Source: Streptomyces sp. NRRL WC-3605 (GTDB lineage: Bacteria > Actinomycetota > Actinomycetes > Streptomycetales > Streptomycetaceae). From it: a stretch of 64,000 nt of DNA. Of this stretch, positions 10,745-64,000 are shown piece after piece (within the stretch, counting starts at the first letter, position 1; each line of letters opens with the position of its first letter). A model generated the notes under the pieces. The model made no database searches, was not told where the DNA came from, and worked only from the letters and a program-made list of their open reading frames with translations. The stretch spans positions 1 through 64,000 of the forward strand of contig NZ_LLZN01000051.1 in assembly GCF_001509795.1 (NCBI RefSeq). Reading direction: 5' to 3'. The translations under genes were made by a program, and so were the position numbers.

Positions 10745-10756
10745 GGCCGGTACGAC

Positions 10757-10787
10757 GGCGGGGCCCGGTCCAGGACCGGGCCCCGCC
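10757..10787. terminator. 15-bp perfect stem, bidirectional terminator
   Basis: GGCGGGGCCCGGTCC and GGACCGGGCCCCGCC are complementary around one base. The stem sits 12 bases after the PAP2 stop and 6 bases after the IF-1 stop on the other strand, so it can end both convergent transcripts. Confidence 0.88.
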
Positions 10788-10793
10788 TCCTGT

Positions 10794-11018
10794 CTAGTTC
10801 CGGTACCGGAACACGATCCGCCCCCGCGCCAGGTCGTACGGCGGAAGCTCCACCAGGACCCGGTCGCCCAGCATGATCCGGATGTAGTGCTTGCGGATCT
10901 TCCCGCTGATGTGCGCGAGGACCTGGTGCCCGTTCTCCAGCTCCACGGTGAACATGGCGCTGCGCAGGCACTCGACGACCTTGCCCTCGACCTCGATGAC
11001 GTTCTTGTGCCCCGTCAT
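10794..11018 (-). CDS. infA: Translation initiation factor IF-1 paralogue
   Basis: The 74-residue protein is a single S1/OB-fold domain with the IF-1 signatures [33 protein letters not shown] and [15 protein letters not shown]-1 binds the 30S A-site and aids initiator-tRNA selection. This copy is not in the rpmJ-rpsM ribosomal cluster, so it is an extra paralogue, as several Streptomyces carry. Its ATG overlaps the stop of the upstream acetyltransferase gene (ATGA), implying translational coupling. Confidence 0.95.
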
Positions 11019-11806
11019 CGGACCAGCTCCAGCGTGCTGCCCACCGGCCGCGCCCCCGCGCCCCGGAACAGCGCCGTCGCCGCCGGGTTCGAGGCGTCGA
11101 CCTCGGTCCACGCCTCGGAGATCCCGGCCCGGTGGAGCACACCCAGCGCGTGGGCGAGCAGAGCCCGCCCGACGCCACGGCGGCGGTCATCGGCCCGCAC
11201 CGCGAGCAGCCCGATCCGGGGCCGCTTCACCCGCACCACCCGGATCAGCCCCAGATAGCGTTCGTCCGTCGCGGCCACCGCGTACAGCGACGGGTCGACG
11301 ATGGTGTCGCCGTCGGCGCGGGGCACCACCTCGGCGGGCATCGCCCGCCAGCCGACGGTCGCCTCGACCTCGGCACGGATGGCGTGGTCCACCTCCCGCA
11401 GCATCTCCTCGTCCGCCTGTCCGGCGGGCACGAGGGTGACGCCTGGCGGCGGTACGGGCACACATAGCCCGGTGACCTCCGGGCCGGTGGGCACGGCGTA
11501 CTCCACCTCCCGGCGCGCGACCGTGAAACCGGCCCGCCGCCAGGCGGCCGCCAGCTCGCTGTCGGCCTCGTCGACCACGGTGTGCAGCGGCCCCGGAAGC
11601 GCCGCCGTCATCGCCTCGGCGAGCCGCGCGAAGGCGGCGTCGTGCCAGGCGTCGACACTGATGAACAGGCGGCCGTCCGGGCGGTGCTGCAGATGCCCCC
11701 GGCCGACCACCAGGTCGTCCTCCAGCGCGTGCCACTGCCCGTACGCGACCCGCGTGACCAGCGTCGCGTGTCCGGCCGGACCTGTTGCGTGAGTTCTCGA
11801 ATCCAT
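11015..11806 (-). CDS. GNAT-family acetyltransferase coupled to IF-1
   Basis: The 263-residue protein has a C-terminal GNAT domain with [18 protein letters not shown] (acetyl-CoA loop) and [19 protein letters not shown]. The N-terminal half is a second, weaker GNAT-like region. The acceptor is unknown. ATG 11806 has GGAAGGGG upstream; a longer start at 11899 has no ribosome site and overlaps a possible leader ORF. The gene ends in a 4-base overlap with infA, so the pair is one transcription unit. A hairpin and the leader ORF lie directly upstream. Confidence 0.88.
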
Positions 11807-11818
11807 CGGAGTCCCCTT

Positions 11819-11849
11819 CCAGGAGAGCCTCGATCTCAGGCGCTCCTGG
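11819..11849 (-). promoter_or_regulatory. Hairpin between leader ORF and acetyltransferase ribosome site
   Basis: CCAGGAG pairs with CTCCTGG and, inside a single mismatch, GCCT pairs with AGGC around a 7-base loop. The stem ends immediately before the GGAAGGGG ribosome site of the acetyltransferase. The position, after a short ORF with a very strong ribosome site, suits attenuation control. Confidence 0.5.
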
Positions 11850-11861
11850 CGACACCGAAGG

Positions 11862-11915
11862 TCAGCCGCCGGACCGTGACGGGATGAGGGAGCACCCATG
11901 GGTGACTGTGTTCAC
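11862..11915 (-). CDS. Possible 17-residue leader peptide
   Basis: GTG 11915 follows TAGGAGGTGAGCCCC, the strongest Shine-Dalgarno match noticed in the window, and encodes MNTVTHGCSLIPSRSGG before TGA. A hairpin follows 12 bases after the stop and then the acetyltransferase-infA pair. No homologue is recognised. A regulatory leader peptide is inferred from position, ribosome site and hairpin. Alternatively, the strong site could belong to a degraded start. Confidence 0.5.
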   Translation of the reverse strand: MNTVTHGCSLIPSRSGG

Positions 11916-12026
11916 GGGGCTCACCTCCTACGACGATTCGACGGTCCACCGCGAACCTAGCAGCGGCGCGGTGGGCCGCTCCACTCATTAACGTCCCGGC
12001 ACGCTCGACCGCCGTCCCCGCCCCGC

Positions 12027-13454
12027 TCAGGCGCGGCGCGGCTTGCCCTGCGAGAACAGCCAGGTCTGGAACAGGCCGCCCAGCCGCTTGCCCGACGTGG
12101 CCTCGGCGAGCTTCACGAACTGGGCCGTCGTGCCGTGCCCGTCACGGTGGCTCGTCGCCCAGGCCCGCAGGATGCGCAGGAACGTCTTGTCGCCGACCGC
12201 GCGCCGCAGTTCGTGCAGGGCCATCGCGCCGCGCGCGTACACGGGGGTCCCGAAGATGTTCTCGCCGCTGCCCGGATCGGCGGGCGGGTACGCCCACAGC
12301 TCGTCGCTCGCGGGGCGGGCGTACAGGGCGTCGAAGGTCTTCTGCGCGGTGTCGCCGCCGTGATGCTCGTCGTACAGCCATTCGGCGTACGTGGCGAAGC
12401 CCTCGTTGAGCCAGATGTCCTTCCACGTGGTCAGGGACACCGAGTCGCCGAACCACTGGTGGGCGCTCTCGTGCACCAGCGTGGCGAGGTCGGGCGCCGA
12501 GTCGTACACCGGCCGGGTCTGGGTCTCCAGCGCGTAGCCGACGTCCGGGGCGTGGTCGACGATCGAGCCCGCCGCGCGGAACGGGTAGGGCCCGAACAGG
12601 CCGCTCTCCCAGGAGAGGACCTCGGGCAGCTTCTTCAGCACCGGCGCGGCCGCCCGGGCCTCCCGTGGGTCGACGGCGTTGTAGACCTTGACGCCGTCGC
12701 GGGTGGTGTACTGCTCGACCTTGAAGGTGCCGACGGTGACGGTGGCCAGGTAGGCGGCCATGGGCTCGGCCGCGTGCCAGCGGAACGTGGTGCGGCCGTG
12801 CGCGGTGCGCTGCCCGCGCAGCACGCCGTTGGCCACCGCCGTACGTCCCTCGGGCACGGTGACGGTGAAGTCGTAAGTCGACTTGTCGGTGGGGTGGTTG
12901 TTCGCGGGGAACCACGTCATCGCGCCCTGCGGCTCGCCCGCCACGAAGGCGCCGTCGTCCGTGGGGATCCAGCCGTCGGGGGAGCCGTCCGGGTCGGTGA
13001 CCGGCTTCGGGGTGCCGTGGTAGTCGACGGTGACGCGGAACGCCCGGCCGGCGGGCAGCGCGCGGCGCGGGGTGACGACGAGTTCCTGCCCGGAGCGGCG
13101 GAAGTCCGCCGGCGCGCGGTCGACGGTGACCGAGGTGACCTTCAGGCCCTTGAGGTCGAGGTCGAAGCGGGTGAGGCGGTGCGTGGCGCGGGCGGTGAGG
13201 ACCGCCCGGCCCTCCAGACGGCGGCTGCCGGTGTCGTAGCGCAGCGTCAGGTCGTAGTGCCCCACGTGGTAGCCGCCGTTGCCGGCCAGTGGGAAGTACG
13301 GGTCACCGACGCCCGCCGAACCGGTGCCGTGGGCCACCGCGGGGCCCGCGCCGGCGAGGAGCGCCGTCACGGTCACGGGGACGGCGGCGAGGAGCGCCTT
13401 GCGGCGGAGCAGGGCGGGTATGCGCCGGGCGGGCTGGCTGCTCGGTGACGTCAC
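12027..13454 (-). CDS. Secreted M1-family metallopeptidase
   Basis: The 475-residue exported protein starts at GTG 13454 behind CAGGAG. A signal peptide (about 1-42) is followed by the M1 beta-saddle domain (about 50-240) and the thermolysin-like domain with HESAHQWFGD (zinc His328 and His332, catalytic Glu329) and zinc Glu351 in WLNEGFATY. The canonical GAMEN exopeptidase motif is not present; the equivalent stretch reads YALETQTRP. The C-terminal helical domain is short compared with the roughly 850-residue PepN type. It probably trims peptides outside the cell. Confidence 0.92.
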   Translation of the reverse strand: MTSPSSQPARRIPALLRRKALLAAVPVTVTALLAGAGPAVAHGTGSAGVGDPYFPLAGNGGYHVGHYDLTLRYDTGSRRLEGRAVLTARATHRLTRFDLDLKGLKVTSVTVDRAPADFRRSGQELVVTPRRALPAGRAFRVTVDYHGTPKPVTDPDGSPDGWIPTDDGAFVAGEPQGAMTWFPANNHPTDKSTYDFTVTVPEGRTAVANGVLRGQRTAHGRTTFRWHAAEPMAAYLATVTVGTFKVEQYTTRDGVKVYNAVDPREARAAAPVLKKLPEVLSWESGLFGPYPFRAAGSIVDHAPDVGYALETQTRPVYDSAPDLATLVHESAHQWFGDSVSLTTWKDIWLNEGFATYAEWLYDEHHGGDTAQKTFDALYARPASDELWAYPPADPGSGENIFGTPVYARGAMALHELRRAVGDKTFLRILRAWATSHRDGHGTTAQFVKLAEATSGKRLGGLFQTWLFSQGKPRRA

Positions 13455-13606
13455 GGGAACTCCTGAGGGGGTGGCTGAAGATCGGCTGGCCGCCAGACTA
13501 GAGGCGACGCGAGCCCGGTTTTCCCATGCTCGGGTCAATTCCCGTGAGGGTGCCGCCCGGAGTGGGCTGTCCAGCAGTCACCCTCACCCGTGCGGGTGGC
13601 ACGGGT

Positions 13607-13651
13607 CCGCGCGGCGGACGAGGGGGTGGGGTCCCGTCGTCCGCCGCGCGG
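13607..13651 (-). terminator. 15-bp perfect stem after the GH81 gene
   Basis: CCGCGCGGCGGACGA pairs perfectly with TCGTCCGCCGCGCGG around a 15-base loop, 50 bases past the glucanase stop. It separates the glucanase from the M1 peptidase gene on the same strand. Confidence 0.8.
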
Positions 13652-13700
13652 CCTTCCGGTCGGCTGAACGGCATCAGCTGACCGGAATCACTACGGCCGA

Positions 13701-16487
13701 TCAGCTGAAGGGGATCACCACCACCGACTTGTCGGTGCCGGTCTGCAGCTTCGAAGAACCGTTGCCGATGGCGCTCCACACCTCCAGGCGCACGGTGCCG
13801 CCCTTGAGGTTCCCCAGAGTGCCCGTGCTGGACCTGAGGCCCCGGGCCTGGCTGTACTCCTCCCACCCGGTGACCGGGTCGGTGGCGAAGTAGTTGTACG
13901 TCTCCGTCCGGTCGAAGGTGCCGTCACCGGTCAGGTCGTAGCTGATCCGGGCCTGCTGGCCGAGGCCGACCGTGGTGCCCGCGTCGACCTGGAGCCGGAA
14001 CGTGGTGCCGGCGCCCGAGGTGAGCGTGCCGTTCACTCCCCGCGCCTCGTAGACGAGGGGCTGGTACGGCGTGCCGTCGTGGTTGGTGCCGCCCGCCGAC
14101 GGGATCGTGTCGCTGCCCGCCGTACCGCCGGTCGAGGTCGTGAGGACGCCGCCGCCGCGCAGCTGGAAGACGTTCCCCGTGGGCGGGTCCTCCGGGTCGG
14201 GATCGGGGTCGGGGTCTTCCGAGCCGGCCCCTGTGCCGCTGGCCGTCGAACGCGCCGGCACCGACAGGGTCTTGCCGTCCGAGAAGGTGACGGTCCGGGC
14301 CGACGAACCGTGGTTGTGGGCCACGTAGGTGCGGGTCGAGCCCTTCGTGAAGACGGCGGAGGTCGGGATGTCCCCGGTGACGGAGGCGTCCGGGGCGCCG
14401 AGCGTGTCGAGGGTGCTGATCCAGTGGTACGTGTGCGCCTTCGACTCGCCCTCCTCCGGGGTGTAACCGCCGTTCCCGGCGTCCCACTTGGACTTGGCCG
14501 ACGCCGGGTCGGCGAAGGACTGGAACTCCCACAGGATGTCCCGCCATTCGACCGCCGGGCCGCCGTTCTCCCGTTCCATCTCGGCGATGTTGCGCCGGAT
14601 CGCGGCCTTCTCCCCGCCGAGGTGGAGCGAACCACCGGTCACGGGAAGGACGTTGATGCCGTGGATCTCCTCGGGGTTGGCCGTCCACCAGGTGGCGTAG
14701 GCGGCGCCGCTGCCCCACACCATGCCGGCCGTGTCGTGTCCGAAGGAGGACGGGAAGACCTGCTCGTCGGCGTCGAACCAGTACTGTGCTATCGCCTCCG
14801 ACTCTGTGGTCAGCAGGAAGGTGCCGAGGTCGCGCAGCGAGGTGTCACCGGTGGCCGACCCCCACAGGACGAGGGCCGCGCTGAGGTTGGTCGACTCGGA
14901 CGACGACTCCTGGTTGTTGCCGGCGGCGAACCCCTGGTGACCGGAGGCCCAGCTGTGCCCGGCGTAGACGTCGAAGCCGCGCAGGAAGGGGAACGCGGAG
15001 TCGGTGCGGCTCGGGTTGGCGGTGTCCCGGACGAGCGTCTTGACCATGCCGCCCCACGCGGAGTCGGCGGCCCAGGCCGGGTCGTACTGGGCGACGATCG
15101 CCGCCGCGTAGACGTAGTAGCCGTAGTGGAAGTGGTGGTCGTTCAGCTCGGTGTCGCTGCCGTAGGAGGCGGGGTAGCCGGTGAGCGTCTTCCAGTCCTT
15201 GTCGTAGCTGAACTCGTTGGCGCCGCCCGCCGTGAACCAGTCCTGCAGCTTGCCCTTCATCAGGTTCAGCATCCGGTCGCGGATGCCGGTCTCACCGATC
15301 TGCTCGGCGACGGGCACCAGTTGCGCGAGCCGGCCGAGAGCCTTGCCGGTCCAGTACGTGTCGGACGCCCCGGAGAACGGGTCGGAGGCGTTCACGACGT
15401 CGTTGAGGTAGCCGCGCAGCCGCGCCGCGTCCACCCCGCTCGACTTGGGCAGCGCGGGCAGCACCGCCGACGCCTTCTGGCTCGTGCTGAACGAGGCCCC
15501 CTCGCGGACCTTCATGGTGCCGCGCGGCGAGACGTAGGTGTACGAGGTCAGCGCGTCCGAGGTGTTCAGCCACTGGTGGCGGTAGAGGGCCTGGAGCGTG
15601 CCGCGCTCGCTCCCCTCCTTCGCCTCCGTGGTGAGGGTGTACGTGGCCCGCACGGTGCCGCCGCTGTAGTTCCAGGTCGCCTTGGAGTCGGTGACGAAGC
15701 TGAAGGCGTACTTCGCGAAGGTGGACAGGGCGCCGGTGGACGGCAGCACGGCGACCGAGAAGTAGTCCTTGCCGCCGAGCCCGGCGGTGACGGTGGAACC
15801 GGAGACGTTCCAGTCGCTGCCGCTCGGCGCGAACAGCGCGTAGTGGTGCCCGGCGACGGTGATGCCGAGGACGTTGCCCTGGTCGGCGAAGACGGTGGGC
15901 GCGCCCGCGGTGGTGATCTGGGCGTTGCCGCCCGTGCCCTTGGCGTATACGAACGGGGAGCCGTGGCCGATCGTGGTCCGCAGGGTGCGGGTGCCGTCGG
16001 ACCACAGGGGGGTGACCGTCCAGTCGGACCAGTCGTCGGCCTTCGTGTCGGGGGAGTTGAGGCCGGTCAGTCCGATGGTGAGGTCCCGCTTGTGGGCGTA
16101 CTCGTACTGGCGGCCGTCGCCGACGATCGCCGGGGAGGTCGGGTAGCCGACGTCGAGGCCGCCGGCCGTGGCCTGGTAGGTGAGCGGGTGGCCGTACATG
16201 GGGGTCGACCACGGGTTGTCGCCGTACCGCTGGAAGGCCAGGGAGGACCACCAGTCGTTGGTGGGGACGGGCCGGCTCCGGGCGGCGGACGTCACCTTGG
16301 GGGTGACGGGTGTCCCTGTGTTGGTGGTGGGGCCGGACGTGCCGGCGGGCCGGGTGTCGGAGTAACTGCCGTTGCCTACGGGCACGGTGGCCGCGGCCGC
16401 CGGAGTGGCGGCCGGGCCCAGACCGAAGGCGGCGAGGGCTGAGGCCAGCAGCAGGACGGCCGCCGGTCTGGTGCGTGGGGATCGCAT
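13701..16487 (-). CDS. Secreted GH81 endo-beta-1,3-glucanase with CBM56-like module
   Basis: The 928-residue precursor begins at ATG 16487 behind GAGGTG. After a signal peptide (to about 33), the GH81 catalytic region spans roughly 45-760: VPTNDWWSSLAFQ, the helical (alpha/alpha)6 part with DTELNDHHFHYGYY, and GNNQESSSESTNL carrying the likely catalytic Glu. A DPDPDPDPEDP linker leads to a C-terminal beta-1,3-glucan-binding module (VFQLRGGGVLTTSTGG to the end, CBM56 type). The enzyme should hydrolyse fungal or plant beta-1,3-glucan. A LacI-type operator lies 41 bases upstream of the start, suggesting sugar-responsive repression. Confidence 0.93.
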   Translation of the reverse strand: MRSPRTRPAAVLLLASALAAFGLGPAATPAAAATVPVGNGSYSDTRPAGTSGPTTNTGTPVTPKVTSAARSRPVPTNDWWSSLAFQRYGDNPWSTPMYGHPLTYQATAGGLDVGYPTSPAIVGDGRQYEYAHKRDLTIGLTGLNSPDTKADDWSDWTVTPLWSDGTRTLRTTIGHGSPFVYAKGTGGNAQITTAGAPTVFADQGNVLGITVAGHHYALFAPSGSDWNVSGSTVTAGLGGKDYFSVAVLPSTGALSTFAKYAFSFVTDSKATWNYSGGTVRATYTLTTEAKEGSERGTLQALYRHQWLNTSDALTSYTYVSPRGTMKVREGASFSTSQKASAVLPALPKSSGVDAARLRGYLNDVVNASDPFSGASDTYWTGKALGRLAQLVPVAEQIGETGIRDRMLNLMKGKLQDWFTAGGANEFSYDKDWKTLTGYPASYGSDTELNDHHFHYGYYVYAAAIVAQYDPAWAADSAWGGMVKTLVRDTANPSRTDSAFPFLRGFDVYAGHSWASGHQGFAAGNNQESSSESTNLSAALVLWGSATGDTSLRDLGTFLLTTESEAIAQYWFDADEQVFPSSFGHDTAGMVWGSGAAYATWWTANPEEIHGINVLPVTGGSLHLGGEKAAIRRNIAEMERENGGPAVEWRDILWEFQSFADPASAKSKWDAGNGGYTPEEGESKAHTYHWISTLDTLGAPDASVTGDIPTSAVFTKGSTRTYVAHNHGSSARTVTFSDGKTLSVPARSTASGTGAGSEDPDPDPDPEDPPTGNVFQLRGGGVLTTSTGGTAGSDTIPSAGGTNHDGTPYQPLVYEARGVNGTLTSGAGTTFRLQVDAGTTVGLGQQARISYDLTGDGTFDRTETYNYFATDPVTGWEEYSQARGLRSSTGTLGNLKGGTVRLEVWSAIGNGSSKLQTGTDKSVVVIPFS

Positions 16488-16527
16488 GGGGCACCTCAAG
16501 TCTTCACTGGAGGGGAGTCCGAGAGTT

Positions 16528-16541
16528 TGAGAGCGCTCTCA
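16528..16541. promoter_or_regulatory. LacI-family operator TGAGAGCGCTCTCA
   Basis: This is a perfect 14-bp palindrome upstream of the GH81 start. It differs at one symmetric position from the CebR operator TGGGAGCGCTCCCA known in Streptomyces, and has the central CG typical of LacI-family sites. No LacI gene is in the window, so the regulator acts from elsewhere. Confidence 0.8.
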
Positions 16542-16833
16542 GATGGCCGGAACGTAAATGCTGCGTAATGAGCGTGTCAATGCGTTGAACACAGCCGGTA
16601 GTTGAAATCCGTTTTGTCTTCGCAGGTTGATGGTCTGGTGTGAAGGGGGGTGTGGGGTGGGGGAGTTGGGGCGAAGGGGCTCAGTGGCTCGGCGGCTGCG
16701 GCTGCGGCTAGGGGAGGGGCGGGCCGACGGGTGCGCCGGTCGGGTGTCCCGGCGATCACGCCTCCCGGGGATCACGGCGGTGGTGGACGGGTGGCGCCCG
16801 TCGTGGCGGAAAGACGCGGGTCTTCCGGGCGGG

Positions 16834-16851
16834 TGGTAACAGCTGTTACCA
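16834..16851. promoter_or_regulatory. 18-bp perfect palindrome before the antitoxin
   Basis: TGGTAACAGCTGTTACCA ends 7 bases before the antitoxin ATG. It is the likely autoregulatory operator of the toxin-antitoxin pair. No Shine-Dalgarno fits between it and the ATG, so the mRNA may be leaderless with the operator over the promoter. Confidence 0.75.
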
Positions 16852-16858
16852 TGCCCGC

Positions 16859-17116
16859 ATGGCGAAGACACAGCTGGGCGCGCGCGTGGACGAGGACATC
16901 GCGGACCTCGCGAAGAAGCGTGCCGCGGACCTGGGACTGAGCGTCGGGGACTACCTCGCCCGGCTGGTCCAGGACGACGCGAGCGGGCTGCGCGCCCGCG
17001 CGGTGGAGGCCGCCGGACGGTTCCTCGCGGAGCACCAGGCGATCTTCGACGAGGCCGAGGAGGGGGCCGAGGGCGCCGGGCAGGCGCAGGCCGCCGGGGG
17101 AGCGCGCGCCGCCTGA
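16859..17116 (+). CDS. Antitoxin-like DNA-binding protein
   Basis: The 85-residue protein has a short N-terminal ribbon-helix-helix-like segment (TQLGARVDEDIADLAKKRAADL, about 4-25, then GLSVGDYLARLVQ) and a helical, Glu/Ala-rich C-terminus suited to toxin binding. Its stop overlaps the next ATG by one base (TGATG). The gene arrangement and upstream palindrome fit an autoregulated antitoxin. Confidence 0.75.
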   Translation: MAKTQLGARVDEDIADLAKKRAADLGLSVGDYLARLVQDDASGLRARAVEAAGRFLAEHQAIFDEAEEGAEGAGQAQAAGGARAA

Positions 17117-17493
17117 TGGACCTGCACATCGACGTCCCCTGGATCTTGCAGGTCACCGAGATCGCCGGGGCGAACGACCCCGCGCCCGACGACTACGGTG
17201 TCCCCGTCTCGGCGGTCGCCCGGCACCGGGCCGAGCTGTTCGAGCAGCCCGTCTACGACAGCCCCTACGCCAAGGCCGCGGCCCTGGTGCACACGCTCGG
17301 GCGGTGCCGCTGGCTGGAGCGCTCCAACATGGCCGTGGCGGCCGCGACCGGCGTCATGTACCTGGAGGCGGCGGGGATCACCGTCAAGCCGGCCCGCGAG
17401 CACGCCGTGGCTCTCAAGGACCTGCTCCTGGACCCGACGTGCACGGCCGGACGGATAGCGACGCTGCTGCGCGGCTGGCCCACGGCGACCTGA
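17116..17493 (+). CDS. Doc/Fic-like toxin with degenerate motif
   Basis: The 125-residue helical protein matches the type annotated in Streptomyces as Fic/Doc-family toxin. The expected HxFx(D/E)GNKR motif is replaced by RWLERSNMA (about 72-80): Glu and Asn remain, but His, Gly and the Lys-Arg pair do not. Doc phosphorylates EF-Tu and Fic proteins AMPylate targets; with the catalytic His missing, activity here cannot be assumed. It is translationally coupled to the antitoxin. Confidence 0.65.
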   Translation: MDLHIDVPWILQVTEIAGANDPAPDDYGVPVSAVARHRAELFEQPVYDSPYAKAAALVHTLGRCRWLERSNMAVAAATGVMYLEAAGITVKPAREHAVALKDLLLDPTCTAGRIATLLRGWPTAT

Positions 17494-17573
17494 GCGGGGG
17501 CGGCGCATCTGCGGGTTCCGGGGGCCCCGGTGATCCAGCCGCCACTGTCAGACCCTCTCGTTACGGTCGGAGC

Positions 17574-17981
17574 ATGAGAGCTACGGCAACTTTCACCGTC
17601 AAGGCGTTCGTTCCGACCGAGCTGAAGCCCGAGCCGGAGGTGTCCACCGGGCTGCCCGTGGGGGTCGCGACGATGGAGAAGAGCTACGAGGGGGAGGTCG
17701 TCGGGCGCTCGGCGACCCTGTTCACGGCCGCGTTCGACCAGGCGACCGGCGTCGGCACCTATGTGGCCATGGAGTCGTTCGAAGGCTCACTGCACGGACG
17801 GGAGGGCGCCTTCAACTTCGTGCACTCGGCGACCACTTCGGGCAGCGACCGCACGGCCGAGTTCTTCACCGTCGTGCCGTCGAGCGGCACCGGTGAACTC
17901 GCGGGGATCACCGGTGCCGGAGGGATGGCCGTGGACGCCGACGGCACGCACCGCATCTGGTTCGACTACACACTCGGCTGA
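17574..17981 (+). CDS. DUF3224 domain protein
   Basis: This 135-residue beta-barrel-like protein has the DUF3224 layout: ATFTVKAF, a YEGEVVGRS strand pair, GTYVAMESFEGSLHGREGAF and a GTGELAGITG turn. It is cytoplasmic, with no signal. Function is not known for the family (lipocalin-like fold suspected). Confidence 0.85.
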   Translation: MRATATFTVKAFVPTELKPEPEVSTGLPVGVATMEKSYEGEVVGRSATLFTAAFDQATGVGTYVAMESFEGSLHGREGAFNFVHSATTSGSDRTAEFFTVVPSSGTGELAGITGAGGMAVDADGTHRIWFDYTLG

Positions 17982-18006
17982 GGACCGCGATCGGCGCGCC
18001 GGCGGG

Positions 18007-18513
18007 TCAGGTCAGGACCAACCACCGTCGGCCGTCGAGCAGTTCGCGTGCCGCGTCGAGGTGCCCGGCGTGGCACGCCGTCTCGGTGATGACGTGCAGC
18101 AGGACGTCCCGGACGGTGTGCAGGTGCGGTGGGCCGAAGAGGTGGTGGGGCCACCAGGCCAGAGGGGCGTCCGCGTCCGTGGCGGCCACGACGGCGTCGG
18201 AGAGGCCCGCCTCGGTGCGGTACCGGTCGAGCACCTCGGTGTGCGGCACGCCGGGGGCCACCTGCCAGGCGTCCTGGATGTCGTCCAGGGCCTCGATGAC
18301 GGCCGGGTCGCCGGTGACGACGGCCCGGAACCAGAACCGCTCGACGTCGAGCGCCAGGTGCTGGACGAGCCCGAGGCAGTTCCATCCCGACGGCAGCACG
18401 GGCTGCCGCAGTGCCTCCGGCTCCAACCCGTCGAGGATGCCGAGGACGTGGCGACGCTGGGCGTCCAGGAAGGACAACAGGGCGTGCAGCTCGCTCTTCG
18501 CGGGCTCGGTCAC
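18007..18513 (-). CDS. DinB-like protein, DUF664 family
   Basis: The 168-residue helical protein carries GWNCLGLVQHLALDVERFWF and HVITETACHAGHLDAARE, which supply the DinB His triad. Its GTG start overlaps the stop of the upstream VOC gene (GTGA), so the two are translationally coupled and probably act together in detoxification. Thiol-dependent transfer is plausible from family knowledge but not shown. Confidence 0.85.
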   Translation of the reverse strand: MTEPAKSELHALLSFLDAQRRHVLGILDGLEPEALRQPVLPSGWNCLGLVQHLALDVERFWFRAVVTGDPAVIEALDDIQDAWQVAPGVPHTEVLDRYRTEAGLSDAVVAATDADAPLAWWPHHLFGPPHLHTVRDVLLHVITETACHAGHLDAARELLDGRRWLVLT

Positions 18514-18911
18514 TGTGCGATCTCCCAGATGTGGCCGCCCGGATCCCTGAAGCTGGCGGTACGGATGCCCCAGGGCCGGTCCATGGGGCCGTTCAGCAGC
18601 GTCACGCCACGGGCGGCCAGCTCCTTGCACATCGCGTCCACGTCGCCCACGGGAAGGGTGAGCTGAAGACGGGAGCCGGCGTCCGGCTCGGCGACGCGCG
18701 CGGGGTCGATCAGCTCGTGCGCCGCGGTGGACCGCAGGAGGTTGATGACGGTGTTCCCGAAGTCGAAGACAGCCGAGTCGTCGTCCTCGTAGGTCACCGG
18801 CAGACGGAACACGTCGCGGTAGAAGCGCTTCGTGGCCTCCAGGTCCTCCACGAAGAGGGTGAGGGCGCTGATCTTTCCGGGCCACGGGGTTTCGGATGTC
18901 GTATGGGTCAC
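18510..18911 (-). CDS. VOC-superfamily (glyoxalase/bleomycin-resistance-like) protein
   Basis: The 133-residue protein has the two beta-alpha-beta-beta-beta halves of VOC proteins: LTLFVEDLEATKRFYRDVF and, at the end, FRDPGGHIWEIAQ with the usual metal-ligand Glu. These are dioxygenases, isomerases or drug-binding proteins. The GTG start at 18911 has only a weak ribosome site. It forms an operon with the DinB gene. Confidence 0.85.
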   Translation of the reverse strand: MTHTTSETPWPGKISALTLFVEDLEATKRFYRDVFRLPVTYEDDDSAVFDFGNTVINLLRSTAAHELIDPARVAEPDAGSRLQLTLPVGDVDAMCKELAARGVTLLNGPMDRPWGIRTASFRDPGGHIWEIAQ

Positions 18912-21707: not shown

Positions 21708-22496
21708 ATGCTCAAGGGATACACTGTCCCGCTTTCTCCGAAGGGCGAAGCGAACGAGGCCCCGGCACCCCCCTGGCATTACTCCGGAGACGTCATCGGG
21801 GTCGAATTCTTCACCGATCCCGCCGCCGCGGAGGCCACGCTCCCCGAGGGGCTGACCCCTGATCCGGAATCGTCCGGACGGGTCGTCGCCTATTTCTTCG
21901 ACTGGCAGTTCAACGGGGAGAACGACGAATACCTCGACCCGGTCTACAGCCAGTACCGCGAGTTCTTCGTCCTCGTCGACGCCCACTACGACGGGCAGCC
22001 CGTCTCATGGTGCCCGTACATCTATGTCGACAACCACCACGCGCTGGCACGCGGGCTGGTGCAGGGATTCCCGAAGAAGATCGGGCAGGTGCACCAGACC
22101 CGGGTCTTCGCCTCACCGGGGAAGGCGTCGCCCACGCTGTCGCCCGGCGCGCGCTTCGGCGCCAGCGTCTCCTGCGACGAGCGGACGCTCGCGCAGGCGA
22201 GGGTCACGCTGGAGAAGCCCCTGGAGGACCCGACGCCTCTGCTGAGCCGGGACACCATCAATCTGCGGCATTTCCCGACGCTCGAAGTGGGCAAGTACGA
22301 CAAGCCGGCGGTCCACGAACTGGTGCGGATGGAATACGGCGATCAGCAACTGGCGGACGTATGGATCGGCAGCAGCGAGATCGAGCTCTTCGACGCACCG
22401 CGCGAGGAACTCGCCGATCTCCGCCCGGTGCGTGCGGGCATGGGATTCCGGGGCTCGATGTCCTACAACGTGACGCAGGTCTTTCCGCTCACCTGA
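21708..22496 (+). CDS. Acetoacetate-decarboxylase-family enzyme
   Basis: The 262-residue protein starts at ATG 21708 behind CTGGAGG. The Schiff-base lysine motif GFPKKIGQ (120-127) matches the Lys pair of acetoacetate decarboxylase, and CPYIYVDNHHALARG precedes it as expected. Members decarboxylate acetoacetate or catalyse aldolase-dehydratase steps. The next gene, 57 bases on, is a pyruvate-oxidase-like enzyme on the same strand, so a two-step keto-acid pathway is likely. The 236 bases upstream contain a GTACCGGTAC palindrome at 21623-21632 but no clear gene. Confidence 0.85.
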   Translation: MLKGYTVPLSPKGEANEAPAPPWHYSGDVIGVEFFTDPAAAEATLPEGLTPDPESSGRVVAYFFDWQFNGENDEYLDPVYSQYREFFVLVDAHYDGQPVSWCPYIYVDNHHALARGLVQGFPKKIGQVHQTRVFASPGKASPTLSPGARFGASVSCDERTLAQARVTLEKPLEDPTPLLSRDTINLRHFPTLEVGKYDKPAVHELVRMEYGDQQLADVWIGSSEIELFDAPREELADLRPVRAGMGFRGSMSYNVTQVFPLT

Positions 22497-57941: not shown

Positions 57942-58336
57942 GAGCCCAAACAACCACGACGGGGCCGGCCGGCGCGGGCAGGACACGGCGACGCGGCCGA
58001 CCGGCATCGCCGGCGAGCCTCACCGAGAGTCCCCGACTCGGCCAGGTCACCACCCGGCGCTTCCGCCATCCTCCCCCTGCGGATGCACATAGCGAAGGGC
58101 TCCGACTTCGTGGGCACCACCCTCTCCGGCTACGTCCTCCGCTCCCCGAGGCGATGCGACCGGGCACCTCCGTGTGCGGCCGCCGAGGATCATCGCGCCC
58201 ATGGCGGGTTCGGACCGGCAACAGCCAGTGGCACGGGCGAAGTTGACATACCGGCATCTTGCGGATGGTCGGGGTCAAGAGGGACGATCAAAGGGAAAGG
58301 TGCACGGTAGGTCGGACGGATACGCGAGGGGTGACG
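57942..58336. other. 395-bp region before the PLP enzyme
   Basis: No gene with a family match is seen. A short frame near 58083-58155 (HIAKGSDFVGTTLSGYVL) looks protein-like but has no partner. TTGACA at 58243-58248 is a possible -35 element with a weak -10 about 17 bases on, pointing toward the PLP gene. Confidence 0.35.
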
Positions 58337-59482
58337 GTGGTCGAGCGCAATCTCACGCAAGAGGAGGTGGACGCGCTCCCGTTCGAGCTCAATCTGTCGG
58401 ATGGACACGCCTTCCGCCCCTGGACCCGCGCCGAGTCCGAGATCATCGGCGATTCGGCACGCTTCTTCAGGGAGTCCGACCGCAGGGGCGGGCAGGAAGC
58501 CGAGGCCGAGTACATACGCCGCTACCTCGCTCTCGGAGCGCAGTCCTACATACCCGATCACTTCACCGGCCTGATGTCCTACTCCGCCTCGATGGCCGTC
58601 GAGATCGTGGCCAACGTACTGCGCCTCAGGGGGCTTTCGGCGGCGCTGATCGAGCCCTGCTTCGACAACATCGCGGACATCCTCCGGCGCCACCGCGTCC
58701 CCCTCCAGCCGATCCCGGAGACGGCACTGACGGCCGGGCCGGCCGCGCTGGAGCGGCTGCTCGGCACACTCACCGCGGATGTGATCTTCCTCGTCAGCCC
58801 CAACAACCCGACCGGGACCGTGGTCGGCGAGGAGGCGTTCACCCGGATCGTCGACCACTGCCGGACCGAGAACAAGCTCCTCGTCCTCGACGGCTGCTTC
58901 CGGGTCTACCTGTCCCTCGACGAGGTCTACGACCACTACGGCATCCTCGCCGCCTCGGGAATCGACTGCGTCGTCATCGAGGACACCGGCAAGGTCTGGC
59001 CCGCGGCCGAGCTGAAGGCTCCCTTCCTCTGCGTGTCACCGGGTCTGGTGCGCGAGGTCAAGGCGATGCACTCGGACTTCCTTCTCCACCTGTCGCCCTT
59101 CACCGTCCGGCTGATCACGGAGTTCCTGGGTCTCGCCGAGGCGGACGGCGGACGCCATCTCAGGGAGCTCGTGGCGCGCAACCGGACGCTCTTCCAGAGC
59201 ACGGTCCCCGGCTCGTTCCTGCGGACGGACGACACCGGGAAGCTGGGTCTGGCCTGGCTGAAGGTGGAGATGGACGGACTGGACGGCGAGGACGTCCGCA
59301 AGCTCCTCGCCCGGCACGGCGTCCACGTGCTGTCCGGCGAGAGGTTCTACTGGCGGTCCCCGCACCTGGGGCGGAAGCATCTGCGCATGGCCCTGCTGCG
59401 TGACCCGGACGTCGTCCAGCGGGCCGCCGAGGTGATCGCAGATCTCGGGGCCGAGGTCGCCGGCAGCCGCTCACGGAGCTGA
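58337..59482 (+). CDS. MppP/RohP-like PLP-dependent, oxygen-using arginine oxidase/hydroxylase
   Basis: The 381-residue fold-type I aminotransferase-like protein differs from ordinary aminotransferases. It has a mobile-type N-terminus with FELNLSDGHA (16-25), SYSASMAVEIVANVL (81-95), EPCFDNIADILR (106-117), SPNNPTG (154-160), VLDGCF (183-188), VVIEDTGKVWPAAELKAPF (Lys219 the PLP lysine) and HSDFLLHLSP. This set closely follows MppP (about 376 residues), which oxidises L-arginine to 4-hydroxy-2-oxoarginine or dehydroarginine using O2, and RohP of azomycin biosynthesis. GTG 58337 has GAGGGG upstream. The similarity is recalled, not aligned by program. No partner hydroxylase or NRPS gene is in the window. 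Confidence 0.8.
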   Translation: MVERNLTQEEVDALPFELNLSDGHAFRPWTRAESEIIGDSARFFRESDRRGGQEAEAEYIRRYLALGAQSYIPDHFTGLMSYSASMAVEIVANVLRLRGLSAALIEPCFDNIADILRRHRVPLQPIPETALTAGPAALERLLGTLTADVIFLVSPNNPTGTVVGEEAFTRIVDHCRTENKLLVLDGCFRVYLSLDEVYDHYGILAASGIDCVVIEDTGKVWPAAELKAPFLCVSPGLVREVKAMHSDFLLHLSPFTVRLITEFLGLAEADGGRHLRELVARNRTLFQSTVPGSFLRTDDTGKLGLAWLKVEMDGLDGEDVRKLLARHGVHVLSGERFYWRSPHLGRKHLRMALLRDPDVVQRAAEVIADLGAEVAGSRSRS

Positions 59483-61651
59483 GGGCACCTCCGCCAGGGC
59501 CTGGGCCGAACGCCGCGTGTCCGGGTGGTTCTCGCCCAGCACCCGGCGTCGCCGCTCCCACGTGTCCTGGTGGAGTTCCCGGGCGCGGGCGTACTCCTCG
59601 AGGGCGGACAGGTCGTCGGCGAGGCTGTACGCCGAGCGGAGTGTGTCGGGGTGGTCGTCGCCGTGGAGCTGCCGACGCCGGTTCCAGACCTCCTCGTTCA
59701 GCGTCCGGGCCTGGGCGTAGTCACCCATCCGGTGCAGGGTGATGGCCAGGTAGTGCCTCGAGCGCAGGGTGTCCGGGTGATCCGCGCCCAGTCGCTCGCG
59801 TCGCTGCCCCAGCACCCACAGCTCCAGCTCCCTCGCCCGTTCCAGCTCGCCCAGGTCGCAGAGATCCGATGCCAGGTGGTGCGCTGAGTGCAGCGTGTCG
59901 GGGTGGGTCTCGCCGAGGACCCGGCGCCGCCGCTGCCATACGTCCTCGTTGATGTCGCGGGCCTTCTCCCGCTCGCCGAGTTCGTACAGGTCGGAGCCCA
60001 GGTAGTGCGCCGACTGCAGGGTGTCCGGGTGGTCCTCGCCGAGCAGGCGGCGGTGGTGGCGCCACCCTTCCTCGTCCAGGGCGCGCGCCCCGGCGAAGTC
60101 GCCCAGGTCGCACAGGTCGGCCGCCAGCTGGTGCGCCGACCGGATGGTGTCGGGATGGTCCATCCCGAGGACCGAGCACCGCCGGTGCCAGACGTCCTGG
60201 TCGACCTCCCTCGCCTGTGCGTACTCACCCAGCTCGAAGAGGTTGGACGCGAGGTTGTAGCCGGAATGGAGCGTGTCGGGATGGTCGGGGCCCAGGCGGT
60301 CCGTCCAGGACTCCCGGGTGATCCGGCAGATGTCGACCGCGGACCGGGACTGGCCGGAGAAGTACAGATAGCGCTGGACCTTCAGGACCAGGGCGCGGAA
60401 ACCCTCCGCGTCCAGCTGGGGCCCGGGCAGGGACGCGGCGGACGACAGGAGCTCACGGACGTGCGGGACGATCATCCCGTACTCGGGCCAGGTCTCGGGG
60501 GTGTCCGGGTCGCCCAGCGTGATCGTGGCGAGCAGTTCCTCGGCGGCGTGGTGGGTCACCTCGTGCTCTTCGCGCGGGAGCCTCGCCCGGAGCAGGGCGT
60601 GCACGAGGCGGTGCATCTGCAGGGCGTTGTCGGCGTGCCGGGCCAGACCGAGGGTGACGATCTTGCGGACGGCGAGAGCGGCCGTCGCCGTGTCACCGAG
60701 CTGGACGCCGAACCGGGGTGCCGCGACGGCGGGGTCGGAGCCCAGCGGGATCGGCTCCGGCGCGAGGAACGCGAGCCGGTCGAGCAGGGTGGCGGCCGTC
60801 GGGCCGGCCGTCGCCATCAGCCGGTCTCGGCTGGTGGCCACCACCGACACCAGTCCGGGGTGCGCCGAGACGGTCCGGTCGTCCAGGCCGCTCGCCGTCG
60901 GCTGTGACTCCAGGAGCCTGAGGTAGTCGGACGTCTCCAGGCGGGTCTCGTCGAGGAAGCATCCGACCTGCTCCACCGAGAGGGGAAGGTCGCCCACCGC
61001 GGCGGCCACACGGTCGGCGTCCTCGGGGGACAGCGTGGGGCACCGGCGGGACAGCAGGCTGATCGACTCGTCGCGTTCGAACTCGGGGACGTCGATGCGT
61101 GTACCGATACGTCCGATACGGGGGTCGCGGCCGGTGATGAGCAGCTTTCCTCCGCTGGGAGGGAGGAGGTCGTTCATGGCGCCGAGATCGTCGAGGTTGT
61201 CGTACACCAGTAACCAGTCGCTCCTGGCGGACAGTTCCACCCAGAGTGCCCGTATGAGGAGCGACGGCTGGCCGGCGGTGAGTCCCAACTGCGAGGCCAG
61301 GGCGGTGAGGCTGGCCATGACGGCCGCCAGCTGGTCGGCCCCCACCCACCAGACCAGCCCGTAGTCATGGGCGTGGCGATGGGCGTACTCGAGAGCCAGT
61401 TGGGTCTTGCCGATCCCGCCCATGCCGATGAGGGAGACCACGCCGGGGTCGTCGCTGTGACCGTCCTCCTCGGAGCCCTGCATGCTGGCGGCGACGCGCT
61501 CCAGGAGGGCGGCCCGCCCGGTGAAGGCCTGGTTGCGTGACGGCAGGGCGCGGATCGGCCGCAGGCGGGTGGCCGGTTCGTGCGCATGCGGTGATACGAG
61601 GTGGAGGTGGTCGATGCGTTCGGCGACGACTCCACCGCCGATCGCTGCCAT
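59471..61651 (-). CDS. NB-ARC ATPase with C-terminal TPR array (NLR-like)
   Basis: The 726-residue protein has a short N-terminal segment with GGGVVAERIDHLHLVSP (about 5-21), an NB-ARC STAND ATPase (P-loop LIGMGGIGKTQLALE, Walker B WLLVYDNLDD, GKLLITGRD), a winged helix with an MHD-like HRLVHALLR and, from about 453 to the end, seven kinesin-light-chain-type TPR units with LGxDHPDTLxS. STAND proteins oligomerise on ligand sensing. The 3' end overlaps the PLP gene by 12 bases (convergent). Two genes upstream on the same strand look functionally linked. Confidence 0.9.
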   Translation of the reverse strand: MAAIGGGVVAERIDHLHLVSPHAHEPATRLRPIRALPSRNQAFTGRAALLERVAASMQGSEEDGHSDDPGVVSLIGMGGIGKTQLALEYAHRHAHDYGLVWWVGADQLAAVMASLTALASQLGLTAGQPSLLIRALWVELSARSDWLLVYDNLDDLGAMNDLLPPSGGKLLITGRDPRIGRIGTRIDVPEFERDESISLLSRRCPTLSPEDADRVAAAVGDLPLSVEQVGCFLDETRLETSDYLRLLESQPTASGLDDRTVSAHPGLVSVVATSRDRLMATAGPTAATLLDRLAFLAPEPIPLGSDPAVAAPRFGVQLGDTATAALAVRKIVTLGLARHADNALQMHRLVHALLRARLPREEHEVTHHAAEELLATITLGDPDTPETWPEYGMIVPHVRELLSSAASLPGPQLDAEGFRALVLKVQRYLYFSGQSRSAVDICRITRESWTDRLGPDHPDTLHSGYNLASNLFELGEYAQAREVDQDVWHRRCSVLGMDHPDTIRSAHQLAADLCDLGDFAGARALDEEGWRHHRRLLGEDHPDTLQSAHYLGSDLYELGEREKARDINEDVWQRRRRVLGETHPDTLHSAHHLASDLCDLGELERARELELWVLGQRRERLGADHPDTLRSRHYLAITLHRMGDYAQARTLNEEVWNRRRQLHGDDHPDTLRSAYSLADDLSALEEYARARELHQDTWERRRRVLGENHPDTRRSAQALAEVPSAP
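59474..60295 (-). repeat. 126-bp coding tandem repeat array
   Basis: Six 42-codon units plus a 22-codon tail encode the TPR region of the NB-ARC protein. DNA identity between units is visible throughout (GGACCACCCCGACAC blocks on the coding strand). Confidence 0.85.
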
Positions 61652-61695
61652 CCCGGCCGCGACCGGTGGCTGGGCAGGCGTCTCTCCGGGACCGC

Positions 61696-62154
61696 TTAGC
61701 CCTCGTGCGGCCCCGGGGTGGAAGGGTGGGCGCCGGTGGTCACTCCTCCCGAGACGTTGCCGCCGACGACGACGCCGCCCGTCTCGACGCGGAGGTCATG
61801 CGCCACGCTGATGCCGCTGTGGGGCGCGAGCCCTGCCTCGTGACGCTGCAGACGGTCGACGGACGCGGCCAGTTCGTCGGCGAAGCCGGAGTCGTCCTCC
61901 GCCCTGTCGGCGATCGCGTCCGTGGCCCGCCGTATCGTGCGCTCGGTCACCTCGCCGTCACCGGCCTGCTCCAGGAGCCGGGTGAGGGCGGGGTCTTCGC
62001 CGATGGCTCCAGCGACCAGTTCATGCAGGGCGTCCATGTTCTGGTCGAGGACGAGATCGGCTGGGACATCGCCACCGGCACCGATTCTGCGGGCCCGGCG
62101 CACGAGGTATCCGACCGCGGCTCCCGCCATGAGGTCCACTCCGGGTGTCGGCAC
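61696..62154 (-). CDS. Small helical protein with Gly/Val-rich tail, possible NLR-linked effector
   Basis: The 152-residue protein starts at GTG 62154 with GGGGGAGGAAGC upstream. It has a hydrophobic helix (LMAGAAVGYLVRR, about 7-20), an acidic helical middle (ADLVLDQNMDALHELVAGAI onwards), and a tail with SGISVAHDLRVETGGVVVGG, then NVSGGVTTG. Helical N-terminal domain plus short beta-prone C-terminal motif is the layout described for Bell-domain effectors that pair with NLR receptors through matching amyloid motifs. Its stop is 44 bases before the NB-ARC start, whose N-terminus also contains GGGVV. The assignment is by architecture only. Confidence 0.65.
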   Translation of the reverse strand: MPTPGVDLMAGAAVGYLVRRARRIGAGGDVPADLVLDQNMDALHELVAGAIGEDPALTRLLEQAGDGEVTERTIRRATDAIADRAEDDSGFADELAASVDRLQRHEAGLAPHSGISVAHDLRVETGGVVVGGNVSGGVTTGAHPSTPGPHEG

Positions 62155-62311
62155 GCTTCCTCCCCCATTGTCGGCTGAGACCATTTAACACCTTGACGGC
62201 ATGATTGCTGACGATTGCTTCCCGACAACGTCCGTCGCCCTGAGGTGTGTTGAGCGACGTTGAGCAGAGGCGCAGGAAGAGGCGTGTCGGCCATGCGGCC
62301 CGATCAAACGG

Positions 62312-64000
62312 TCACGGCATGTCCGGAGGAGCAGGGACCGCCCGGTCGATGGCGTTGAGAAGGGTGACGCTGAGCCGGGTGTCGGGGTGGTCCTCACCGA
62401 GGACGCGCCGTCGGCGTTCGGCCGTGTCGCGGGCGATCTGGAGGGCTTCGTCGATCCGGCCCAGCCCCGCAAGGCTGGCCGCCAGGTTGGACGCGGTGTC
62501 CAGAGTCTCGGGATGGTCGTCCCCCAGGACCTGCCGACGGCGGAGCAGAGTGTCCTCGGCCAGGGCGCAGGCCTCGGCCAGACGTCCCAGTTCCGACAGG
62601 TCCGTGGCCATGTTGGAGGCGGTGAAGAGCGTGTCGCGGTGGTCCTCGCCGAGGACCCGGCGCTGCCGGCTCACGGTGTCCTGGGCGAGGGCGAGGCCCT
62701 CCTCCAGGCGTCCCAGTCCGGCGAGGCAGGCCGCCACGGTGGATGCGACGGCCAGTGTCTCGCCATGCTCGTCGCCCACGACCCGGCGGTAACGGATCAG
62801 GGTGTCCCGGGCCAGTTCCAGGGCCTCTTCGGTCTGTCCGAGATCCATCAGGTCGGCGGCCACGTTCGCCGCCGTCCGCAGCACCGCGGGGTGGTCCTCG
62901 CCGAGTTCCTGCCGTTGCCGGCCCAGGAGGCCGCGGTTCAGGGCGAGGGCGCGGTCGTGGTCGGCGACGGCAGCGGCGGCGCGGGCGAGGCAGGCGGTGG
63001 CCCGGCGGGTGGCGGCGTGATCGGCTCCCAACTCGGCGGTCCAGGCGCGGTGCAGGCCCTCGAGCCGGGGGAGTACGGCTGCAGCGCTGCCGCGGTCGAC
63101 CAGGTACTGGCAGGCCTCGCAGGCCGCCAGGCGTGCGGCGTCCGTGACCAGATCGCCGGATGCGATCACGAGCAGATGCGGGAGCAGATCGGGCCGACCG
63201 GGCCAGGCGGCCGGGTCCTGGGCATCGCCAGGGAACGCGGCGGTGAGCAGCAGGCTGGCGTGACGAGCCGCGACGGCACGCTCAGGGCCGGTGAGCTGGT
63301 CCGCGATGACGGCCTGGGTGAGCCGGTGCAGGTGAAGGGCTCCGCCTTCCACTCGCGCCAGCCCGTGTCGCTGAAGCGCCGTCAGTACGCGGCTCCTCGT
63401 GGCCGGGTCGACCACGACTCGGCCGACAGTCGACGCACCGGCCGCCTCGCGGCCTCGCAGGACCGGCAGGGTGAACGGCTCCGGGGCCAGGAGCGCGCAG
63501 GCCTGGAGCACTTCGGTGGCCTGGGGGTCCTGCGCCCGCAGCCGCCGCATGCTGAGCCGTATCTGCGCGGCCAGCGTCGAGGGGCAGCCGAGCGGTTTGC
63601 CGGCGTCGGTCACCTCGCCCGCTCGGCCGGCGAGTTGCTCCAGGTAATCCGGCACGCTGGTCGTGGTCAGGACCTCGGCCGCCTGCACCAGGGCGAGAGG
63701 CCAGTCGTCCAGCGCCGCCGCGAGCCGGTCCGCTTCCGTCGTCGCCAACCAAGGTGTGCGGCCGAGCAGCAAGGCGATCGAATCCCTGCGCGCCAGCGCG
63801 CCGACGGCCATGGGGATGGCGCGCTCGTGCCAACGCGGGTCGCGTGAGGTGATCAGGACGTGTCCCGCGCCGGACGGCAGATGGGCGGTCACCGTTTCGG
63901 GGTCCTCGGCGTTGTCGAACACGATCAGCCAGCGCGTCCGCGACCGCAGCTCCGCGGCCAGCGCGGCTACGGCCTCCCGGGGGGACCTGGTCCGGTCGGC
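62312..64000 (-). CDS. Second NB-ARC/TPR protein (5' end beyond the window)
   Basis: The last 562 residues are visible and the gene continues off the right edge. Walker B WLIVFDNAEDP, GHVLITSRDP and the winged helix HRLTQAVIADQL mark the NB-ARC region. Six TPR units of 42 residues (LGEDHPxTLxxAxN type) occupy 62315-63031. The TPR units are more diverged than those of the neighbouring NB-ARC protein. It lies upstream in the same direction as the effector-like gene. Confidence 0.85.
   Translation of the reverse strand, partial: ADRTRSPREAVAALAAELRSRTRWLIVFDNAEDPETVTAHLPSGAGHVLITSRDPRWHERAIPMAVGALARRDSIALLLGRTPWLATTEADRLAAALDDWPLALVQAAEVLTTTSVPDYLEQLAGRAGEVTDAGKPLGCPSTLAAQIRLSMRRLRAQDPQATEVLQACALLAPEPFTLPVLRGREAAGASTVGRVVVDPATRSRVLTALQRHGLARVEGGALHLHRLTQAVIADQLTGPERAVAARHASLLLTAAFPGDAQDPAAWPGRPDLLPHLLVIASGDLVTDAARLAACEACQYLVDRGSAAAVLPRLEGLHRAWTAELGADHAATRRATACLARAAAAVADHDRALALNRGLLGRQRQELGEDHPAVLRTAANVAADLMDLGQTEEALELARDTLIRYRRVVGDEHGETLAVASTVAACLAGLGRLEEGLALAQDTVSRQRRVLGEDHRDTLFTASNMATDLSELGRLAEACALAEDTLLRRRQVLGDDHPETLDTASNLAASLAGLGRIDEALQIARDTAERRRRVLGEDHPDTRLSVTLLNAIDRAVPAPPDMP

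Follow-up and report, generated by a model that had tools for sequence, protein, structure and literature searches.

A PLP/O2-dependent arginine oxidase homologue linked to a STAND ATPase and a small helical protein in Streptomyces

In the window analysed here, the first 64,000 nucleotides of contig NZ_LLZN01000051.1 of Streptomyces sp. NRRL WC-3605, a gene for a homologue of the PLP/O2-dependent L-arginine oxidases (hereafter ArgOx) opens a conserved block of three genes, the others encoding a STAND ATPase with TPRs and a small helical protein, and does not lie alone as the initial annotation, made from the sequence letters, had proposed. The same order, with the oxidase and STAND genes pointing towards each other and the small gene following, was found in all four genomes with a readable close-oxidase locus, namely the window's own, G399 (locus L024), Streptomyces xylophagus (L021) and G619 (L083), so that the look at related genomes which the annotation had advised returned the same two partners beside the oxidase each time. 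Across the three other loci, identity to the window was 79-84% for the oxidase, 83-90% for the STAND protein and 71-83% for the small protein. Since G619 has the window's own flanks, the four genomes represent three sites. We tentatively read the three genes as a functional oxidase-STAND-adaptor module within which a working oxidase acts; the linkage is observed, and it suggests a joint function. This is the single most likely reading, although it is slightly outweighed by the two neighbour-only readings, which see no functional tie between oxidase and STAND pair, taken together.

Table 1. Features of the window discussed in the text
Feature	Position	Strand	Basis or closest match
ArgOx, PLP/O2-dependent L-arginine oxidase homologue, 381 aa	58337..59482	+	sequence, residues, tree, predicted fold
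STAND (NB-ARC) ATPase with C-terminal TPRs, 726 aa	59471..61651	-	NCBIfam FxSxx_TPR, 588 bits (cut-off 300)
Small protein, ~152 aa	61696..62154 (open frame to 62184)	-	structure prediction, domain scans
Inverted repeat TTGTCG (62168-62173) / CGACAA (62223-62228)	62168..62228		upstream of the small gene, by eye
Shared homology block	58250..62231		two other genomes, different sites, sharp ends on both sides, 82-83% DNA identity
Acetoacetate-decarboxylase (ADC)-family protein	21708-22496	+	the genome's one; closest PDB entry 4zbo, 'acetoacetate decarboxylase'

Limits and sites of the three-gene block

The block in the window matched positions 14573-18559 of the G399 locus at 82.7% DNA identity and, from position 58252, positions 9914-13891 of the S. 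xylophagus locus at 82.4%, and these two loci aligned with each other at 87.1% (L024 14566-18582 versus L021 9905-13914). Essentially this block of ~4.0 kb alone is common to the three, with conserved sequence extending just beyond the start regions of its first and last genes; the other matches among them were internal TPR repeats and one 114-base match between L024 and L021 about 10 kb away. The right flank of the G399 locus, followed to 18.4 kb past the block, had no match in the window, the rest of the window's contig, L083 or L021 (where the right flank runs 1.9 kb to the contig end), and what the G399 flank comparison returned outside the block alignments was short ATPase-region matches and sigma-factor-like paralogues of the left flank. 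From these differing surroundings we infer that the block has moved. A search of 61 genomes for an empty G399 site (E 1e-30, four candidates scored per genome) gave no clean one: the sequences to the left and to the right of the block had their matches at separate places, and the right-hand one matched in one other genome only. Integration directed by a tRNA was considered and rejected, a tRNA-Ser adjoining the block in one of the four loci and no duplicated end being visible by eye.

Purifying selection acts on all three genes: over six pairs per gene, NG86 dN/dS lies at 0.22-0.31 in the oxidase gene, 0.12-0.31 in the STAND gene and 0.18-0.29 in the small gene. This selection, together with the fit of the block limits to the three genes in each of three settings, argues against simple hitchhiking, in which functionally independent genes moved together by chance; the convergent gene order and the occurrence of the STAND/small pair alone elsewhere speak for it, and on balance we regard it as unlikely.

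Active site, family placement and pathway setting of the oxidase

In a comparison with PDB structures, the nearest solved relatives of ArgOx were RohP, MppP and Plu4, with ordinary aminotransferases far behind; Ind4 is absent from every sequence and fold comparison reported here. ArgOx is identical to MppP at 26 of 32 compared positions, which include the PLP lysine, the lid Thr/Glu pair and the equivalent of His29. The N-terminal lid is present, with T7, E10 and H24 as counterparts of MppP Thr12, Glu15 and His29, while K219 is the PLP lysine (MppP K221), D216 corresponds to Asp218, and R350, N157 and D185 correspond to Arg352, Asn160 and Asp188. We take Thr12 to be a functional lid residue of MppP, and Arg352, Asn160 and Asp188 presumably serve as functional residues of the same enzyme. 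The remaining six positions differ (A26S, V92M, S93A, S190C, G193V and H340Y in MppP numbering), and RohP likewise has C and Y at MppP positions 190 and 340. The 15 ArgOx positions that we highlight were chosen after all 32 had been viewed. A structure of the MppP E15A mutant is deposited as PDB 5bk7, and His29 is put forward in passages of PMC6411801 as a possible signature. As ArgOx scored 183 bits against the MppP equivalog model (NCBIfam TIGR04462), below its cut-off of 450, it should not be filed as MppP.

A search in which 7,999 candidates were scored yielded at least 191 proteins related to ArgOx at E 1e-10 or better, and among the best 120, at least 15 clusters (the window's own included) were 81-100% identical to ArgOx, the next being at 56%; the six of these clusters that bear an organism name are all from Streptomyces. 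In a quick tree of 69 rows (46 of the 120 proteins, 3 PDB enzymes, 19 locus genes and the query; no bootstrap), the close ArgOx clade comprised 12 rows with an SH-aLRT support of 100 and was nested, along with one 56% sequence, in a largely undescribed branch of 34 rows (support 99). The RohP branch (23 rows, 99) and the MppP branch (5 rows, 100) lay apart from it. Eleven rows were flagged as long, Plu4 being the longest, and their placement is unsure. In a second tree with outgroup, built from the same set minus 14 divergent rows, seven ordinary aminotransferases were split from 55 oxidase-like rows by a branch of support 100. A topology that groups the query clade with the aminotransferases on the same side of a branch was not rejected (p-AU 0.63), so the tree favours no one order of the oxidase clades near its root.

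Sequence, active-site residues, predicted fold and tree thus all bear out the initial annotation in placing the protein among the PLP/O2 arginine oxidases and apart from ordinary aminotransferases: the alignment with MppP and RohP that it had proposed as a check found the lid Thr/Glu, the His29 equivalent and the PLP lysine retained, and the phylogeny set ArgOx outside the aminotransferases, beyond the branch of support 100. ArgOx is therefore probably a working PLP/O2-dependent L-arginine oxidase, a view that draws on sequence and modelled structure. An aminotransferase-like PLP enzyme that has lost the O2 chemistry or uses another substrate would be consistent with the ~32% identity to characterised members and with the six differing positions; given the retained equivalents of the PLP lysine, lid Thr/Glu, His29, Asp218 and Arg352, and the seven aminotransferases lying beyond that branch, we consider it very improbable.

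Close copies of ArgOx are rare. At 80% identity or more they occurred in 2 of 392 genomes drawn from the genus (the window's own and G399), 3 of 394 from the family and 3 of 391 from the order (the same two plus G619 in both), these draws overlapping. A scan of genome contigs gave one locus, that of S. xylophagus, at 79%. No match was found in phages at 1e-10, and plasmids held two relatives only, both distant (37% and 30%).

Outside the block, 13 flanking genes on the window's contig were scanned, among them one for a short-chain dehydrogenase, and none looks like an enduracididine, azomycin or indolmycin partner, in agreement with the earlier remark that no known partner genes are visible. 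The accompanying suggestion that the enzyme might feed a distant pathway was pursued for one MppR-like candidate, the ADC-family protein in Table 1, and found no support there: this protein reached 176 bits with the MppR model, whose cut-off is 380, its nearest structure is 4zbo, and across 31 chosen genomes its occurrence does not match that of the oxidase (an 84% copy is present in G027, which has no close oxidase; G399 has the oxidase and a 42% relative only). The candidate was accordingly rejected as a partner. Elsewhere in the family, an operon that combines DUF6190, DHDPS-like and haem-oxygenase-like genes recurs in the RohP branch, and we take it to be azomycin-linked; these families occur in 10-11 of 18 compared oxidase loci (Pfam names taken from one locus), and none of these genes was found among the window-side flanking genes scanned. 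The 49% relative in G276 sits in an NRPS-like cluster, and relatives on a Streptomyces plasmid and on Bartonella plasmid pTLV-1 adjoin genes for an NAD(P)-dependent oxidoreductase and an ATP-grasp protein. As separate observations, the G276 oxidase gene (L025 ~9600-10822) has its N-terminal part and the rest in different frames, and the 30% relative on B. kosoyi pTLV-1 (L061 10798-11955), a plasmid typed as mobilizable, also lies near CoA-ligase-like and MATE genes.

These biosynthetic-looking surroundings (the RohP-branch operon, the NRPS-like cluster and the two plasmid clusters) favour an alternative in which ArgOx serves biosynthesis, supplying its oxidised arginine product to a pathway encoded elsewhere in the genome, with the STAND pair as a neighbour only. 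Two observations count against it, namely that in three genomes, at different sites, the oxidase is accompanied by the two STAND-system genes only, and that the distribution of the single MppR-like protein differs from that of the oxidase; we judge this alternative to be no likelier than hitchhiking.

The STAND/TPR gene, the small protein and the strength of their linkage to the oxidase

The STAND gene converges with the oxidase gene at its 3' end, with an overlap of 12 bases. In S. xylophagus its frame carries tandem CPYLRERR repeats at the end (L021 ~11011-11230) and runs further over the oxidase gene. The FxSxx-COOH label attached to the STAND protein is not to be taken as a sign of a RiPP system, because the genome lacks the radical SAM maturase FxsB (best score genome-wide 26.8 bits, cut-off 370). 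The small protein is predicted to form five helices with a low-confidence ETGGVVVGGNVSGGVTTG tail; it had no Pfam or NCBIfam match, and its predicted fold had no structural match at E 0.001. The inverted repeat upstream of its gene, a possible operator, has arms ~50 bases apart, with the outer site present in 4/4 loci and the inner one exact in 3/4. A second NB-ARC/TPR-type protein (62312-64000, minus strand, running past the window end; FxSxx_TPR 413 bits) adjoins the block; it is present in G619 (L083) and does not lie next to the block at the other two sites. A PADLOC scan of the oxidase, STAND, small and second TPR proteins gave no match at E 0.001.

In the draw of 392 genomes from the genus, the small protein had matches at 1e-8 in 14, and the only two copies above 55% identity were those of the two genomes having the close oxidase. 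Fifteen other small-protein loci (10.7-19.9 kb) contained no oxidase relative at 1e-6. In eight of these 15, all in the same genus, the next gene after the small one is of STAND type, as recognised for six by tblastn with the window's STAND protein (L046, L047, L049, L051, L053 and L058) and for two by Pfam (L045, nSTAND5 at 28.2 bits, below the cut-off of 34; L057, NACHT above its cut-off); of the remaining seven loci, the two scanned at this position (L052 and L054) had no Pfam family there. The STAND-type genes adjoining the small-protein family (L045-L059) are varied, comprising NB-ARC, nSTAND5-like and NACHT types, and the family looks like a general STAND partner that has no Pfam family of its own.

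From the oxidase side, searches at 1e-5 for the STAND, small and second TPR proteins found nothing in 47 loci of other oxidase relatives; as 28 of these loci have flanks of 1.5 kb and several repeat one gene, the informative count is 0/19 (flanks of ~8-12 kb). The linkage of oxidase, STAND and small genes was thus seen only in the close clade, where it is present in 4/4 loci. No published report of an oxidase-STAND linkage was found in literature that mostly excludes subscription journals.

Proposed module and comparison with known systems

The chemistry of the family, in which L-Arg and O2 give 2-ketoarginine and hydroxylated or desaturated products, is described in parts of PMC7497351 and PMC6411801. 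By family membership, and following the mechanism established for RohP and MppP, ArgOx would close its lid on the Arg-PLP aldimine, the quinonoid would then react with O2, and oxidised 2-ketoarginine products and reduced oxygen would be released, a hydroxylase-type and a desaturase-type outcome being indistinguishable by sequence. Within the module, the STAND ATPase may act as sensor or switch, the small helical protein as adaptor and the oxidase as metabolic output, in defence or stress signalling that consumes arginine and releases a reactive arginine derivative and/or H2O2. Speculatively, the convergent gene order may mean separate transcription, with control at the protein or metabolite level.

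The module reading is favoured by a block that recurs in all four close-oxidase loci at three sites and ends sharply just outside the three genes. It also draws on the family placement of ArgOx, the purifying selection on all three genes, the presence of the only two small-protein copies above 55% identity in genomes that have the close oxidase, the STAND-type neighbours of the small-protein family in 8 of 15 other loci, and the lack of pathway partners among the 13 flanking genes. Against it, there are only four genomes and three sites, the oxidase and STAND genes converge and so cannot form a single operon, small/STAND pairs without an oxidase in other genomes mean that such pairs need no oxidase in general, more distant oxidase relatives lack the pair, and neither a PADLOC match nor a clean empty site was obtained. 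In a more specific version, which we hold to be less likely than either neighbour-only reading, the oxidase would serve as effector in a STAND conflict module, activated or released by the STAND/adaptor complex upon infection or stress, consuming O2, depleting arginine and producing H2O2 and a reactive arginine analogue; if true, this would be the first PLP oxidase as an immune-type effector known to us.

PMC7497351 presents the PLP arginine oxidases MppP, RohP and Ind4 as enzymes of antibiotic pathways. A clade travelling with a STAND ATPase and a small partner suggests arginine-oxidase chemistry outside secondary metabolism, and the compact three-gene set is directly testable in laboratory Streptomyces.

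Compared with characterised oxidases, ArgOx falls in a different clade from RohP (Streptomyces cattleya, azomycin pathway; PDB 6c3a-6c3d), whose operon genes have no counterparts among the flanking genes scanned. It is 33-34% identical to MppP (S. wadayamensis, enduracididine; PDB 5dj1, 6c8t and others) and keeps equivalents of T12, E15, H29, D218, K221 and R352, whereas neighbours of the MppQ/MppR type are missing from the flanking genes scanned. Plu4, a PLP desaturase (PDB 7n79, 7rf9, 7rgb), shares the fold at 28-29% identity and is the most distant of the three. On the STAND side, sections of Kaur et al. 2020 (PMC7159879) and PMC8195603 present STAND ATPases with TPRs as parts of conflict systems in multicellular bacteria, and PMC8195603 also describes TRADD-N proteins encoded beside an AP-ATPase with TPRs; the main text of neither paper contains words beginning 'aminotransferase' or 'oxidase'. 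The block resembles these systems in joining an NB-ARC ATPase with TPRs to a small partner protein in an actinomycete, and differs from them in that the window neighbours scanned included no TIR, caspase, nuclease or peptide-processing gene, and a PLP oxidase is present nearby.
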